Source: Arthrobacter sp. FB24 (GTDB taxonomy: Bacteria > Actinomycetota > Actinomycetes > Actinomycetales > Micrococcaceae). Taken from it: a stretch of DNA of 64,000 nucleotides. Below are positions 47,778 through 54,951 of the stretch, one piece after another. Both the position numbers and the translations under genes were made by a program. A model generated the notes under the pieces. It was given only the letters and a program-made list of their open reading frames with translations, made no database searches and had not been told where the DNA came from. The number at the start of each line of letters is the position of its first letter. Within the stretch, counting starts at the first letter, position 1. The stretch spans positions 2,480,001 to 2,544,000 of the forward strand of contig NC_008541.1 in assembly GCF_000196235.1 (NCBI RefSeq), in the 5' to 3' direction.

Positions 47778-50309
47778 CTACGCCGGGACGATGTTGACCA
47801 GTTTAGGTGCACGCACGATGACCGTGCGGATACCCCGCCCGTCGAGGGCGCGCTGGACGTTCTCCGACGCGAGGGCCAGTTCACGCAACTCGTCTTCGCC
47901 GATCTCCGGAGAGACTTCGAGACGGTCGCGGACCTTGCCCTGGACCTGGACGACGGCGGTCACCGTGTCCTGCACCAGGAGCGCTTCGTCATGCGAGGGC
48001 CAGCCGGCGTTCGCCACCGAGGCGGGATGCCCCAGAACGTTCCACATGTCCTCGGCCGTGTACGGCGCGAAAAGGCTTAGGATGACCGCGACAGCTTCCG
48101 CTGCTTCGCGGACGGCGGGATCCGCCCCGCCCGCGCCGGAGGCTGCATCTATGGTTTTGCGGGTCGCGTTGACCAGCTCCATCAGTTTGGCCACCACCAC
48201 GTTGAACTTATTGCTGTCCAGCAGTGCGGCGGCATCGGCGATGGTGCGGTGCGTGACGGAGCGTAGCGCCCGGTCTCCTTGGGCAGCGTCCGCGCCGGGC
48301 GCGCTGCTTACGTCCTGCGCCAGGCGCCAGGCCCGGGCCAGGAACTTTGCGGAGCCCGACGGCGAAACGTCAGCCCAGTCGACGTCGTCCTCCGGCGGCG
48401 AGGCGAAGATCATGGTGAGGCGCACGGCGTCGACGCCGTACTTGTCCAGCTGCTCACCGAGGTCGACGCCGTTGCCCAGGGACTTGCTCATGGCCTTGCC
48501 CCCGTTGAGGACCTGGCCCTGGTTGAGCAGCGCGCTGAACGGTTCGTCGGCGTCGATCATGCCGAGGTCATGGATGACCTTGGTGAAGAACCGGGCGTAC
48601 AGCAGGTGCAGGATGGCGTGCTCCACGCCGCCCACGTACTGCCCCACAGGCATCCAGTCGTTGATCTTCTTGGGATCAAAGGGACCCTCGGTGTACTGCG
48701 GCGACACGAAGCGCAGGAAGTACCACGACGAGTCAACGAACGTGTCCATGGTGTCAGTGTCGCGTTTGGCGGGACCGTGGCAGTTGGGGCACTCAACGTT
48801 GACCCAGGCCTCGGCCGCGGCCAGCGGCGAGGTGCCCTTCGGGGACAGGTCCTCGCCGCGCAGGTCGGCCGGCAGGGTGACGGGCAGCTGGTCGTCGGGA
48901 ACCGGAACTTCGCCGCAGGCAGGGCAGTGGATGATCGGGATGGGCGTGCCCCAGAAGCGCTGGCGGCTGAGCAGCCAGTCACGCAGGCGGAAGTTGACGA
49001 ACTTTTCGCCCGTGCCCTGTTTCTCCAGCATGTCGATCGCCGTCGGGATGGCCTCGGCCTTGGGCAGGCCGTCGAGCACGCCGGAGTTGATCAGGGTGCC
49101 TTCCCCGGCGGTGGCCTTCCCGGTCACCGCGGGGTCGTCCTCCCCCGTGTCCAGCACGGCGCGGACGGGCAGGTCGAAGGTCCTGGCAAAGTCGAGGTCG
49201 CGCTGGTCGTGGGCCGGGACCGCCATGATGGCGCCCGTGCCGTAGTCCGCCAGCACGTAGTCGGCCGCCCAGACGGGCAGCTTTTCGCCGTTCAGTGGGT
49301 TGACGGCGTAACGGCCGGTGAAGACGCCCGTCTTTTCGCGCTCGGTGGACTGCCGTTCGATTTCGGACAGCGCCTTGACCTGTTCGCGGTACGCGTCCAG
49401 GGCCGCGGCGTGCTCGTCCGTGACCAGCTCCACTGCCATCGGCGCATCTGCTGCAACCACGAAGAACGTGGCGCCGTAGAGGGTATCGGGGCGCGTGGTG
49501 AAGACGGTGACGTCCTTGGCCGGCTTATCGCCGGCGGCCTCGATCACGAAGTTGACGTGGGCGCCTTCGGACCGGCCGATCCAGTTCTTCTGCATGGCCA
49601 GGACACGCTCGGGCCAGTGGCCGCGCAGTTCGTCCATGTCGTCCAGCAGCCGGTCGGCGTAGTCGGTGATCTTGAAGTACCACTGGTTCAGGGACTTCTT
49701 GGTTACAGCGGTGCCGCAGCGCTCACAGGCCCCGTTGACCACCTGTTCGTTGGCCAGTACGGTCTGGTCCTTGGGGCACCAGTTGACCGGAGAATCCTTC
49801 CGGTACGCCAGGCCGCGTTCGTAGAAGCGCTTGAACAGCCACTGGGTCCACCGGTAGTACTCCGGGTCCGAGGTGTGCAGGCGCCGTGACCAGTCCGCCG
49901 AGATCGCATAGCGCTTGAAGGACGCCGCCTGGGTGTCGATGTTGGCGTAGGTCCACTCGCTGGGGTGCGCGTTGCGCTTGATGGCGGCGTTCTCGGCGGG
50001 CAAGCCGAAGGAGTCCCAGCCGATCGGGTGCAGGACGTCGTAGCCCTTCTGGCGCAGGTAGCGCGCCACGACGTCGCCCATGGCAAACGCCTCGGCGTGG
50101 CCCATGTGCAGGTCGCCTGAGGGGTAGGGGAACATGTCGAGGACGTAGCGGCGCTCGCGCGAGCCGTCGTCGACGGGTGTGAACACCTTGAGGTCTTCCC
50201 ACACCTGCGGCCATTTGGCCTCCATCGCGGCGAAGCTGTAGGTGCCCTCCTCGGGACCTTCCGTCGCGACTGCTGCTGTTCCGGTCTCTGTCTCCGGCTG
50301 AACGCTCAC
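47778..50309 (-). CDS. leuS: Leucyl-tRNA synthetase
   Basis: Class I synthetase that charges tRNA-Leu. The 843-residue protein includes the HIGH motif as HMGH (near 67-70, in [14 protein letters not shown]), the KMSKS motif as AMSKS (near 605, in [12 protein letters not shown]), the editing (CP1) domain with [13 protein letters not shown], and a zinc segment CERCG. The frame continues upstream, but GTG at 50309 follows AGAGGG and begins [10 protein letters not shown], which suits the family. A 196-nt leader upstream carries a leucine peptide and a terminator hairpin, so expression is likely controlled by leucine or leucyl-tRNA supply. Confidence 0.97.
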
Positions 50310-50418
50310 TGCTGCCCTCTTCTGTTCTGTACCGCTTTTCGTACGGCCCGGGCTTGCTGTCCAGCCCCGGCCCCCTAATCCCCTGCTGCCGGCCCCGAAG
50401 GGCTCCAGACACACAAAA

Positions 50419-50439
50419 GCCCCTCGACATGGAGGGGCT
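50419..50439 (-). terminator. Attenuator terminator hairpin upstream of leuS
   Basis: On the minus strand AGCCCCTC pairs with GAGGGGCT (50439-50432 with 50426-50419) around a 5-nt loop and is followed by TTTTGTGTG. It sits 110 nt before the leuS start and after the leader peptide, so it can stop transcription early. Confidence 0.8.
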
Positions 50440-50478
50440 GCCGCGCGGTAATCCGAGTAGGTCCGGGATACCGGGCGG

Positions 50479-50505
50479 CTAGCTAAGCAGAAGGATCGCA
50501 CGCAT
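50479..50505 (-). CDS. Leucine leader peptide upstream of leuS
   Basis: An 8-codon frame, MRAILLLS, starts ATG at 50505 and ends TAG at 50479. Three Leu codons in a row (CTT CTG CTT) follow an Ile codon. It lies 170 nt before leuS, just ahead of two stems, and resembles the leuA leader ([10 protein letters not shown]...) in sequence and order. It has no Shine-Dalgarno sequence, but a -10-like hexamer six bases upstream fits a leaderless mRNA. Confidence 0.72.
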
Positions 50506-50578
50506 AGAACTACTTTAGCGCACCTCTACCATCAGCTAAACGTAAGTCGCCACGAGCGGCTGAATAGCTGACGGATAG

Positions 50579-50653
50579 GTTGATGGCAGCCGCACCTCGC
50601 CCGGGTGTGGTGGGCACCGCGAAGCGGGCGGGGCAGGTGCGGCTGCCATCAAC
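50579..50653. terminator. Large inverted repeat downstream of glpK
   Basis: A perfect 19-bp pair of arms (50579-50597 and 50635-50653) continues inward with CGCCCG/CGGGCG (50598-50603 with 50625-50630, four bases bulged) around a further small hairpin. It begins 12 nt beyond the glpK stop and separates it from the leuS promoter, so it is probably the glpK terminator. Its length and nested form are unusual. Confidence 0.75.
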
Positions 50654-50664
50654 GACAGGTCAGA

Positions 50665-52179
50665 CTATTTCACGTCCTCGTCGACCCAGTCCATGGACTT
50701 CGTGACGGCCTTCTTCCAGAGGCGCATCTGGCGGTCCCGCTCGGCGTCGTCCATCTGCGGTTCCCAGCGCTTGTCCTCGGACCAGTTGGCCGAGCACTCC
50801 CCTAGGTCCTTCCAGAAGCCGACGGCCAGGCCGGCAGCGTAGGCGGCACCGAGGGCGGTGGTTTCCACAACCTTCGGCCGGATCACCGGAACGCCCAGGA
50901 TGTCCGCCTGGAACTGCATCAGGGCGTCGTTGGCAACCATGCCGCCGTCGACCTTCAACTCAGTCAGCGGAACACCGGAGTCCGCGTTGACGGCGTCGAG
51001 CACCTCACGGGTCTGGAAGGCCGTGGCCTCCAGCGCCGCACGGGCGATGTGGTTCTTGTTCACGAAGCGGGTCAGGCCAACGATCGCGCCGCGGGCATCG
51101 GACCGCCAGTACGGCGCGAAGAGGCCGGAGAACGCCGGCACGATGTAGACGCCGCCGTTGTCCTTGACCGAGGCCGCGAGCGTCTCCACCTCCGGGGCAC
51201 TGCTGATCAGGCCGAGGTTGTCCCGCAGCCACTGGATCAGGGATCCGGTGACGGCGATCGAGCCTTCCAGGGCGTAGTGCGGAGCAGCATCCCCCAGCTT
51301 GTAGCCCACGGTGGTCAGCAGTCCGTTCTTGGAATGGACGATCTCCTCGCCGGTGTTGAAGATCAGGAAGCAGCCCGTTCCGTACGTGTTCTTGGCTTCG
51401 CCGGCATCAAATGCCGCCTGGCCGAACGTGGCTGCCTGCTGGTCGCCGAGGATGCCGGCAACCGGCACTTCCCGGAGCAACTGCGAGGTGTGGACGGTTC
51501 CGTACACCTCGGAGGAGGACTTGATTGCGGGCATCATTGACGCGGGAACACCGAAGGCGTCAAGGATCTCCTGGTCCCAGGACAGCGTGTCCAGGTCCAT
51601 GAACATGGTCCGGGAGGCGTTGGTGACGTCCGTGACGTGCACGCCGCCATCCACTCCGCCGGTGAGGTTCCACAGCACCCAGCAGTCAGTGTTGCCAAAG
51701 ACCAGATCACCGGCTTCGGCCTTGGCACGGGCGCCTTCCACGTTATCCAGGATCCATTTGATCTTGGTGCCGGAGAAGTACGTGGCCAGCGGCAGGCCCA
51801 CCTTCTGTTTGAAGCGCTCCGGTCCGCCGTCCTTGGCCAGTTCATCCACGATGTCCTGCGTCCGGGTGTCCTGCCAGACGATGGCGTTGTAGATCGCCTT
51901 GCCCGTTGTCTTATCCCACACGACGGCGGTTTCGCGCTGGTTGGTGATGCCGACGGCGGCGATGTCGTGCCGGGTCAGGTTCGCTTTGGAAAGCGCCGAG
52001 GCAATGACCTCGCGGGTGTTGTTCCAGATTTCGGCGGGGTCGTGCTCCACCCAGCCGGCCTGCGGAAAGATCTGCTCGTGTTCCATCTGGCCGGAGGAGA
52101 CGATGCTGCCGCTGTGGTCGAAGACGATGGCGCGCGTGCTGGTGGTGCCCTGGTCGATGGCGATTACGTACTGGTTCAT
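50665..52179 (-). CDS. glpK: Glycerol kinase
   Basis: Phosphorylates glycerol to glycerol-3-phosphate with ATP, trapping it in the cell. The 504-residue FGGY kinase has the start [34 protein letters not shown], the ATPase segments [24 protein letters not shown] and [23 protein letters not shown], and the tail FWKDLGE. ATG at 52179 has GGACGTC upstream. It follows glpF by 58 nt in the same direction. Confidence 0.98.
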
Positions 52180-52237
52180 GTTGACGTCCTTGTCTGTTGT
52201 CTGAAGGGCTTGACGGGGTTGTTGAAACGCGGGCGGA

Positions 52238-52987
52238 TCAGGAAGCTGCCGAGGCGATGATCGGCACTACAGCTGCGACAGCGCCGGCCAGGGTACCGCC
52301 TACCAGCGGCCCGACGACCGGGATCCAGGAGTAGCTCCAGTCGCTGGAACCCTTGCCCTTGATGGGGAGCAGAGCGTGCGCAATGCGGGGACCAAGGTCA
52401 CGGGCGGGGTTGATGGCGTAGCCGGTGGGACCGCCGAGGGACACGCCGATGCCCACGACGAGCAGGGCCACAGCGAGCGGGCCGAGGCCCGAGGGGGTGC
52501 CGCCGAACGTCAGGATGACGAAGACGAGCACGAACGTGCCGATGATCTCGGTGATCAGGTTCCAGGGGGTGGAGCGGATGGCAGGGCCGGTGGAGAACAC
52601 GGCGAGCTTGCTGGCGGGTTCCGGTTCGGCGTCAAAGTGCTGCTTGTGGGCCAGCCACATGACGACTGCGCCCAGGAACGCGCCCAGGAGTTCTCCGCCG
52701 AAGTAGGTCAGTGTGGATGCGAAGTCGACGGGCACCCCGGGCGCATATTCGCTTTTCCCGTTCACCAGCAGGCCGAGAGTCACGGCAGGATTGATGTGTG
52801 CGCCGGACTTTACCGCCACATAGACGCCGGCGAAGACCGCGATGCCCCACCCCCACGTGACCATTAGGAATCCGCCGTTGTTGCCCTTGGTGCCTTTGAG
52901 CGCAACGTTTGCCACAACGCCGCAACCCAGCAGGGTGAGCATTGCGGTTCCGAATACTTCGGAAAGGAAAACAATTCCAAGAGACAT
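52238..52987 (-). CDS. glpF: Glycerol uptake facilitator (aquaglyceroporin)
   Basis: MIP-family membrane channel for glycerol. The 249-residue protein has six helices and both pore motifs, [11 protein letters not shown] and [10 protein letters not shown]; the Asp after the second NPAR marks the glycerol-conducting subgroup rather than strict water channels. ATG at 52987 follows GGAGTCAAAG. It is the first gene of glpF-glpK, with glpD 161 nt upstream in the same direction. Confidence 0.96.
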
Positions 52988-53040
52988 CTTTGACTCCTCT
53001 ATTTTCTGTTGTCAGCCCCTCGCGATTTGAAGGGCTGTTG

Positions 53041-53068
53041 GGCCGGCAACGTTGTTGCGTTGCCGGCC
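53041..53068. terminator. Hairpin between glpD and glpF
   Basis: A perfect 11-bp stem (53041-53051 with 53058-53068) with a 6-nt loop lies 80 nt after the glpD stop on the minus strand and 53 nt before the glpF start. It may end or lower transcription into glpF. Confidence 0.65.
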
Positions 53069-53148
53069 GGCTGCTGCGCTGGCTGCTCCTCCAGCGGGAC
53101 TGCGCAGCCCTTGCGCCCGGGCAATTCCTCCCCGGGCACGCAAGCTTT

Positions 53149-54951
53149 CTAAGCGACCAGGCTGTGGACCTGGACGCCGTGGAAGCGTTCAAGCACCTCC
53201 TGGGCATGGTGGATTTCGGCTGCCCTGGCAGCGGCGTCCCATTCCAGCGGGGCAGCGAGGACGTCTGCCACCTCGTTGAGGAGTTCGCCGGTCACCAGCC
53301 CGCGGAAGGCCAGCGAGGTGCGCCGGATCAGCACGTCGATGAGGTGCCCCACTTGTTCGTTCCGGGCCATGAATTCCAGTTCGCGGACACTGAGTTCACG
53401 GGTGGAGTGCAGGAGCCGGTCCGGGCCCGCGTCGAGGTAGCGCAGCACCTCTTCGGCGCGGGTGCCGTATCGGGTCAGCAATCCGGAGATCCGGTCAGCG
53501 TCGCGGCCGGCGGACATGTGGGCCTTGATCCACTGCTGGACTCCGGCCTGGCTGTCCGGGAAGCCGGCTCCGCCGCCAATGGCGAGTTTCGCCGTCGAGA
53601 CTTTCCGGTCCATGCCCAGTTCCTTGAGCACGTCGTTTGTGAGGTGTTCGGCCAGCGCCCGGAATGTTGTCCATTTGCCGCCCACCAGGCTGAGTACGAC
53701 GGCGCCGCTGCCGCCGGATGCCGCTTCCTGGCCGCCGGCACTGCGTTCGATGCGGTAGTCGCGGCTGACGAAGCCGGGCTGGGTGGCGTCGTGCCTGGGC
53801 AGCGGGCGAACGCCGGCGAAGGTGTAGACGATCTGGTCCCTATGCACTGCGACGTCCGGGAAGACGTGGCCGATCAGGTCGAAGAAGTAGTCGATCTCGT
53901 CGTCGGTGCACACGGCGTCCTCGGCCATGTCCGCGTCCACGTCGGTGGTCCCCACGAGGACACGGTCGCCCATCGGGTAGATGAGCACGATCCTGCCGTC
54001 CGTGTGCTCGAAGAAGATCTCGCGGCCGTTGCAGGCTTCGAGGAGGCCGGGGTGGTCCAGCACGATATGCGAGCCCTTGGTGCCGCCCATGAACATCGAC
54101 GCGGCGCCCATGGCCTCATTGGTCAGGTCCACCCACGCCCCCGTGGTGTTGACGATGACGTCCGCCGTGAAGTCGAACACCTCTCCGGTCAGTTCATCGC
54201 GCAGCTGGACAGTGCTGCCGCCGGTGGGCCCGGCTGACGTGCCGGCCGCTCCGCCCATGGCGACGAGCGAGAGGTAGTTGCTGGCCCGCGCGTCGCTCTG
54301 CCCGCTGGCGCCGGCCTTCTCGCCGTCCTGGAGCACGTCAAGGGTGAGGCGCTCTGGGTTGTGGACCGAGGCATCGAAGTACGTGGCCGCGTATTTGATG
54401 CCGGGGTGCAGCCGTGGCAGCTCCGCCAGGGCGCGCTTCCTGCCGCGGAACTGGTGGCGCGGAACGGTGCCCCCGTCGCGGGAAAAGAAGTCGTACATGC
54501 TAAGCCCGACCTTGATGAGGAAAGCTCCGCGTTCCTTCGGCTTGCCCTGCTGCTTGTGGGTCAGGAACCGCAGGGGCGCGGACAGCACACCCGAGAAAGT
54601 GCTGAAGATAGGGATGGTGGTCTGGAGCGGCTTGACGTAGTGGGGAGCGATGCGCAGGAGCCTGTTGCGTTCGACGACGGACTCCTGGACCAGCCGGAAC
54701 TCGCCGTTTTCCAGGTATCGGATTCCACCGTGGATCATGTGCGACGATGCACCGCTGGCCCCCTGGCAGTAATCCCCGCGTTCAACGAGCGCAACGTCCA
54801 CGCCCTGCAGTGCCAGGTCGCGGAAGGTGCCGACTCCGTTGATCCCGCCGCCGATAATCAGGACTTGGGCGCGGGGCCGCTTGCGCAGGCTCTGCACTGA
54901 TGACCGCTGGCGGCTGGTAGCCGGATGGCCGGATGAATCGTTGGTTCCCAA
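53149..54951 (-). CDS. glpD: Glycerol-3-phosphate dehydrogenase (FAD)
   Basis: Membrane-associated flavoenzyme that oxidises glycerol-3-phosphate to dihydroxyacetone phosphate and passes electrons to menaquinone. The 600-residue protein has the FAD motif VLIIGGGINGVGTFRDLALQGVDVALVERGDYCQGASGASSHMIHGGIRYLE after a 25-residue basic extension, DERILVGTTD-like sequence (GDRVLVGTTDVDADMAE), and LVGGKWTTFRALAEH in the DAO domain, then the C-terminal all-helix domain. The start is TTG at 54951 with AAGGAGCAGAT upstream. It is divergent from the SorC-type regulator. Confidence 0.96.
   Translation of the reverse strand: MGTNDSSGHPATSRQRSSVQSLRKRPRAQVLIIGGGINGVGTFRDLALQGVDVALVERGDYCQGASGASSHMIHGGIRYLENGEFRLVQESVVERNRLLRIAPHYVKPLQTTIPIFSTFSGVLSAPLRFLTHKQQGKPKERGAFLIKVGLSMYDFFSRDGGTVPRHQFRGRKRALAELPRLHPGIKYAATYFDASVHNPERLTLDVLQDGEKAGASGQSDARASNYLSLVAMGGAAGTSAGPTGGSTVQLRDELTGEVFDFTADVIVNTTGAWVDLTNEAMGAASMFMGGTKGSHIVLDHPGLLEACNGREIFFEHTDGRIVLIYPMGDRVLVGTTDVDADMAEDAVCTDDEIDYFFDLIGHVFPDVAVHRDQIVYTFAGVRPLPRHDATQPGFVSRDYRIERSAGGQEAASGGSGAVVLSLVGGKWTTFRALAEHLTNDVLKELGMDRKVSTAKLAIGGGAGFPDSQAGVQQWIKAHMSAGRDADRISGLLTRYGTRAEEVLRYLDAGPDRLLHSTRELSVRELEFMARNEQVGHLIDVLIRRTSLAFRGLVTGELLNEVADVLAAPLEWDAAARAAEIHHAQEVLERFHGVQVHSLVA

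Follow-up and report, generated by a model that had tools for sequence, protein, structure and literature searches.

A leucine leader peptide and two adjoining hairpins upstream of leuS in Arthrobacter sp. FB24, a probable attenuator of the kind known from Streptomyces

The leucyl-tRNA synthetase gene (leuS) of the soil bacterium Arthrobacter sp. FB24 is preceded by a short leader that encodes a run of leucines and carries two adjoining hairpins, the second of which is an intrinsic terminator. The leader before leuS is real, far beyond chance, and its layout makes it probable that it acts as a ribosome-mediated transcription attenuator sensing charged tRNA-Leu and controlling leuS. Comparison with published systems gives good support for placing it in the Streptomyces leuL2 kind, which is already known, rather than treating it as a new kind of switch. 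Here, the window means the whole stretch of 64,000 nucleotides that was analysed (contig NC_008541.1, positions 2,480,001 to 2,544,000 of the forward strand), and all coordinates are given in its numbering.

The leader lies directly before leuS, on the same strand, and comprises the following features together with its putative target:

50517-50512, minus strand: -10 hexamer TAAAGT, with a 6-nt spacer to the ATG (sequence and genus conservation)
50505-50479, minus strand: leader peptide frame MRAILLLS*, read as ATG CGT GCG ATC CTT CTG CTT AGC TAG (sequence; conserved in relatives)
50485..50493, minus strand: sensor codons CTT CTG CTT, Leu5-Leu7 (sequence and conservation)
50479-50440, minus strand: hairpin 1, the proposed antiterminator, in which pairing starts at the G of the UAG stop (computed fold and covariation)
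50439-50418, minus strand: stem of the intrinsic terminator, with its U run at 50418-50415 (sequence, fold and covariation of helix 2)
47778..50309, minus strand: leuS, leucine--tRNA ligase, GTG start at 50309, the putative controlled gene (NCBIfam TIGR00396)

The leuS product matched NCBIfam TIGR00396 with 969.9 bits, against a cut-off of 548.4, over 47781-50309. The earlier note had located the frame and the hairpins correctly to within a base or so, and the 8-codon frame with three Leu codons that it described is present in the sequence. The -10-like hexamer that it reported six bases before the ATG is likewise there, and, given its position relative to the start codon, the transcript is probably leaderless. 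Hairpin 1 and the terminator stem stand back to back in the window (gap 0), and the computed RNA fold of nt 1-95 reached -43.4 kcal/mol (z -3.95), with 0 of 200 shuffles as low. Both the hairpin and the terminator of the note were therefore recovered in the fold, with the correction that its '11-bp stem' consists of two 5-bp segments separated by one mismatch, then an internal loop and 4 bp. No T-box or other Rfam family gave a gathering match anywhere in the window, and a T-box was rejected, the four Rfam matches at E <= 10 within 50250-50660 all being to unrelated families. Just past the U run (window 50405-50414), the sequence GTGTGTCYGG appeared by eye to vary hardly at all within the genus, and in many genus loci a small third hairpin seemed, again by eye, to follow it.

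Using the first 119 codons of leuS as the query against 101 genomes of the genus, we recovered the leuS 5′ end in 98 of them and in none of the other three. The leader was present upstream in all 98 loci, 97 of which were captured by a core pattern and one (L021, peptide MRAILVLS) on inspection, and it was also found in all 16 of the closest named relatives (Arthrobacter, Pseudarthrobacter and Paenarthrobacter records). Loss of the Leu run or of the hairpin in close relatives, which the earlier note would have held against its reading, was not seen in either set. Relative to the start codon, the motif TAnnnT occupied exactly positions -12 to -7 in 97 of 97 genus leaders, and upstream of about -20 conservation was near background; the 6-nt spacing between the -10 element and the start codon was also present in 29 of the 31 named leaders measured. 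Codons 5-7 were Leu-Leu-Leu in 95 of 97 genus leaders, with Leu at these three positions in 95, 97, and 97, respectively. Moreover, codon 7 was CTT in every one of the 97, and since CTT accounts for only 10 of the 219 Leu codons in five genes of the window, a rare codon is retained.

Departures from this pattern were few. The middle sensor codon was not Leu in three leaders, specifically L021 (the genus locus outside the 97) and the named relative L142, both Leu-Val-Leu, and the named relative L141, Leu-Gln-Leu; the leaders of L141 and L142 were missed by the pattern script and found by the model. The typical genus frame is mostly 8 codons long and ends at the base of hairpin 1, with a stop at codon 9 in 87 of 97 leaders. 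In the remaining 10 (L020, L033, L034, L043, L048, L053, L067, L071, L096 and L097), TAG is replaced by CAG or AAG, and the peptide is extended to 17 residues, running into the hairpin. The loss of the early stop in 10 of 97 leaders and the non-Leu middle codon in three both count against an attenuator.

The distance between the Leu run and the hairpins was also maintained. We assembled 161 leaders (97 from the genus, 19 from the family and 45 named, the named and genus sets overlapping in kinship), and automatic folding gave a distance of 14 nt from the opening base of the first Leu codon to the first paired base of hairpin 1 in 137 of them, with a gap of 0-1 nt between the two hairpins in 153. 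When only distinct leader sequences were counted, these figures were 124 and 139 of 147, respectively. Seven of the 24 register exceptions had an offset of 11, which fits two-Leu runs.

Covariation analysis showed strong compensatory change in hairpin 1. In an alignment of 74 leaders (A2), which was fitted to the model so that its result leans towards the model structure, 98.8% of the cells in the two helices were paired and 12 of 16 pairs had changed on both sides, giving 108 double-change cells versus a shuffled mean of 20.4, a count reached in 0 of 500 shuffles. Helix 1 had both-side changes in 8 of 9 pairs, and helix 2, the terminator, in 4 of 7, with 99.6% of its cells paired. We also performed a folding-free test in which the Leu codons served as anchor for the 5′ arm and the terminator for the 3′ arm. 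A sequence's own arms paired at 7.9 of 9 positions versus 6.58 with the arms of other sequences (permutation p <= 1e-4, n=50), after 7 of the 57 matched loci had been dropped because their anchors failed, and with L106, L125, L128, L168, L201 and L213 kept despite apparent mis-anchoring. A genus-only RNAalifold analysis (A1) recovered little covariation, with 1 of 18 pairs changed on both sides, because the stem bases hardly vary inside the genus.

Folding calculations addressed how the two hairpins relate to each other. Across 96 genus leaders, the mean computed probability of the terminator was 0.995 at each of 12 ribosome boundaries, the lowest single value being 0.975, and no classical overlapping antiterminator was found over the 12 ribosome masks. 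The outermost terminator pair had a genus mean of 0.87 with the ribosome at the stop (lowest 0.08) versus 0.93 when stalled or unmasked, so it was slightly less likely with the ribosome at the stop, opposite to the direction expected. A classical trp-type attenuator with mutually exclusive stems is thus not supported, as the terminator forms at every mask and boundary overlap is not selected. The leucine attenuator of the earlier note is therefore borne out in its anatomy and by comparison, while the refolding of the terminator upon stalling that it envisaged does not appear in these computed states. According to these models, shared base pairs do not explain an effect of hairpin 1 on the terminator.

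Judging from model matches, homologues of the leader are spread across the class Actinomycetes. The genus model, R1, matched 23 of 40 loci at E <= 0.001, and one more weakly, in a set composed of one locus from each of 30 other genera of the family, nine more family loci, and one from another family of the order; 34 of the 64 remaining named loci matched at E <= 0.01. A wider model, R2, had a match in 163 of 394 genomes and 63 of 137 genera class-wide, a count that covers all matches, whether or not before leuS. Within the family, R2 matched in 79 of 149 genomes and 18 of 32 genera, so that about half had no match, which counts against the attenuator reading, the absences being approximate under the strict filters applied to R2 genome counts. 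The Kocuria, Rothia and Glutamicibacter loci examined had no match to the leader model, and 20 loci without the leader had no Rfam element either. Among genera, the peptides vary (MHASLLLS, MNVALLLT, METTLLLR, MDHILLLG and others) and the Leu run is kept, with the three sensor positions being Leu in 55, 60 and 58 of 60 further leaders, a set that includes close Arthrobacter-group relatives. Frames are longer in Streptosporangium, Nonomuraea and Actinomadura, where the stop lies beyond the start of the hairpin arm; the Leu-to-hairpin distance is unchanged.

A peptide attenuator for a synthetase gene had seemed much less familiar to the author of the earlier note, a view that does not hold for Streptomyces. 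A 2005 study predicted classical attenuators of leuS in S. avermitilis and S. coelicolor (PMC1262725), and in 2021 the S. lividans LeuL2 peptide, MRAVRLLLSEPR, was reported to be leaderless, with a hairpin and a U stretch after it (PMC8079986). One R2 match (L254, 58.4 bits) encodes MRAVRLLLSEPR before LeuS, and because this peptide is identical to published LeuL2, we infer homology with the Streptomyces element. The two share a Leu-run leader peptide, a hairpin, and a terminator before leuS; they differ in that the genus frame mostly stops after 8 codons at the hairpin 1 base, while the 12-codon frame in L254 continues into the hairpin arm. The window thereby supplies a very short leader of the leuS attenuator kind, and leader-peptide control of a tRNA synthetase is apparently widespread in Actinomycetes, beyond Streptomyces. 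An antiterminator is named for Streptomyces in PMC1262725. No paper joining Arthrobacter, leuS and a leader peptide was found in the literature searched.

Other known systems resemble the leader in part. The pheST operon of E. coli, with its pheM leader, is a case of a synthetase gene under leader-peptide control, differing in its amino acid, its proteobacterial host, and its overlapping hairpins. This operon is also named in PMC1262725. The same source describes the actinobacterial LEU element before leuA, which has a Leu-run leader peptide in common with the leuS leaders and differs in the pseudoknot and the pairing with the leuA Shine-Dalgarno box that are proposed for it. The Corynebacterium ilvBNC attenuator (ilvB-II motif) resembles the leader in having a short frame whose regulatory codons lie close to the start of the transcript and an antiterminator adjoining the terminator (PMC11857589); it differs in sensing Ile/Leu/Val, and the sharing of boundary bases is not selected in leuS leaders. 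A different antiterminator pairing is put forward in PMC10272879. Finally, replacement of candidate regulatory codons before S. coelicolor ilvB reportedly had no effect (quoted in PMC1262725), from which it follows that codon-run leaders in the phylum do not always behave as expected, a point that counts against the attenuator.

The mechanism that we favour would run as follows. Transcription would begin with the A of the ATG or a neighbouring base, and the leaderless RNA would be translated by a ribosome that initiates directly on it. With ample Leu-tRNA, the ribosome would reach the stop codon and cover the 5′ arm of hairpin 1, so that this hairpin would be blocked, only the terminator would form, and the transcript would end after about 91 nt. 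With scarce Leu-tRNA, the ribosome would stall with the first Leu codon in its A site. In toeprint practice, the leading edge of a ribosome lies 12-13 nt past the first A-site base. That of the stalled ribosome would stop just short of hairpin 1, which could then fold flush with the terminator and hinder it, allowing RNA polymerase to continue into leuS. Since the register places hairpin 1 just past the stalled ribosome, with its 5′ arm covered when the ribosome is at the stop, hairpin 1 is likely to be the read-out of stalling, and for the regulation to be sensible, with less charged tRNA-Leu giving more LeuRS, it would have to counteract the terminator. Because adjacency is conserved and base sharing is not, we propose stacking or steric interference at the RNA polymerase exit as the form of hindrance, a guess that constitutes the weakest step. 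Hairpin 1 and the terminator are compatible at equilibrium, so a switch is not visible in base pairing, which counts against the proposal. Should adjacency, without any sharing of bases, really be what brings about antitermination, a second mode would have to be added to the textbook logic of attenuation.

Three other readings were weighed. In Corynebacterium ilvBNC, adjacent hairpins compete for a boundary GCC trinucleotide, a model that mutations there support (PMC11857589), and by analogy hairpin 1 of the leuS leader might extend a few pairs into the terminator base, both structures competing for those bases. The adjacency of the hairpins is alike in the two systems, and in unfinished genus transcripts the first two terminator bases do pair upstream, with a mean of 0.54-0.55 when unmasked and of 0.77-0.83 when masking is confined to the bases before the Leu run. 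However, under a mask that represents a ribosome stalled on the first Leu codon, this pairing drops to 0.05-0.11, and the potential for extension was 1.70 pairs versus 1.94 with permuted partners (p 0.996, n=40 distinct flank pairs), so we regard such a competition for boundary bases as unlikely in leuS leaders.

We attach very little probability to control at the level of translation, in which the Leu run CUUCUG would pair with the leuS ribosome-binding region CAGAAG, as has been proposed for the leuA LEU element. The two motifs are complementary in the window, and CAGAAG lies downstream in 76 of the 78 genus leaders that have CTT as codon 5, yet in the 17 of 97 genus leaders where CTC at codon 5 breaks the pairing, CAGAAG is kept in all 17 (seven of these also contain a CAGGAG somewhere in the 260 nt). 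Moreover, this reading leaves the two hairpins and the terminator unexplained. A reading in which a constitutive double hairpin shields leuS from glpK transcription coming from upstream, the small frame being incidental, would agree with a terminator predicted to form in all states. It would not account for a Leu run, a fixed -10 box and a register that are conserved over many genera, nor for codons that change with the controlled gene, and we consider it highly improbable. The attenuator sensing charged tRNA-Leu is thus the reading we retain.

The change of codons emerged from the genes that lie downstream of the leader across the class. In 39 of 46 class loci examined, LeuS was downstream on the same strand; six had another gene, and in L245 the sequence ends shortly after the leader, so that the downstream gene was not visible. 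These 46 loci were a non-random selection, made up of the 26 best-scoring outside the family and 20 hand-picked, with second hits included. Five of the six non-LeuS genes were identified by NCBIfam, as acetolactate synthase (L251, L253 and L267) and citramalate synthase (L252 and L268), and the sixth, in L262, resembles IlvB by reading only. Weaker matches yielded additional ilvB and citramalate synthase leaders, with L286, L296 and L305 confirmed by NCBIfam, and the leuS model also picked up, at low scores, four leaders before leuA-like genes, with L288 confirmed as leuA by NCBIfam; in three of these four, a second terminator-like hairpin was not assigned. The codon runs are Ile-rich (IIIS, LIIT) before citramalate synthase and contain Ile/Leu/Val before ilvB. 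Since the model was built from leuS leaders alone, this natural codon swap provides independent support for the run as the sensor.

Specifically, Ile-run leaders preceded citramalate synthase in other actinomycetes in L252, L268, L286, L302, L305, L292, L309 and L310, the gene assignment in L302, L292, L309 and L310 being by reading only. No paper on an Ile-run leader of citramalate synthase was evident among the matches listed, and the natural Leu-to-Ile swap before this gene opens the sensing step to direct testing. Counted from the last sensor codon, the offset of the hairpin varied over 3-11 nt in ilvB leaders (17 measured) and was 8, as in leuS, in four of the seven citramalate synthase leaders measured; given this variability, the fixed register holds well only for leuS. 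All of these leaders could conceivably belong to one modular actinomycete attenuator class (leuS, ilvB, citramalate synthase and possibly leuA), with exchangeable sensing codons, a hairpin-terminator cassette that reads ribosome position, and antitermination by a flush hairpin without a shared base, a unification that we put forward tentatively and as somewhat doubtful.

In the FB24 genome itself, scoring 150 of 5196 first-look candidates with the genus model gave no hit at E <= 10 other than the leuS leader, and citramalate synthase was not found in a search that had no positive control. The genome does have an ilvB leader, MIAFVTNCAAADAVVVLTKRVAQ (L269, G000:C4 near 2848000), followed by a hairpin and a terminator-like stem in a layout that is similar by eye.

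Upstream of the leader, between glpK and leuS, we noted a long inverted repeat on the minus strand (window 50575-50650) with the loop core CCGCTTCGCGGTGCCCACCACACC. In the relatives L034, L043 and L096, the loop core appears by reading to be the same and the stem differs. The CCGCTTCGCGGTGCCCACCACACC core occurs once in the FB24 genome, with up to 2 mismatches allowed, and is therefore not a dispersed repeat; the inverted repeat is perhaps a structured glpK 3′ element or a terminator. Further upstream, at 50665-54951 of the window, are frames whose translations resemble, by reading, glpK, an aquaglyceroporin, and glycerol-3-phosphate dehydrogenase.
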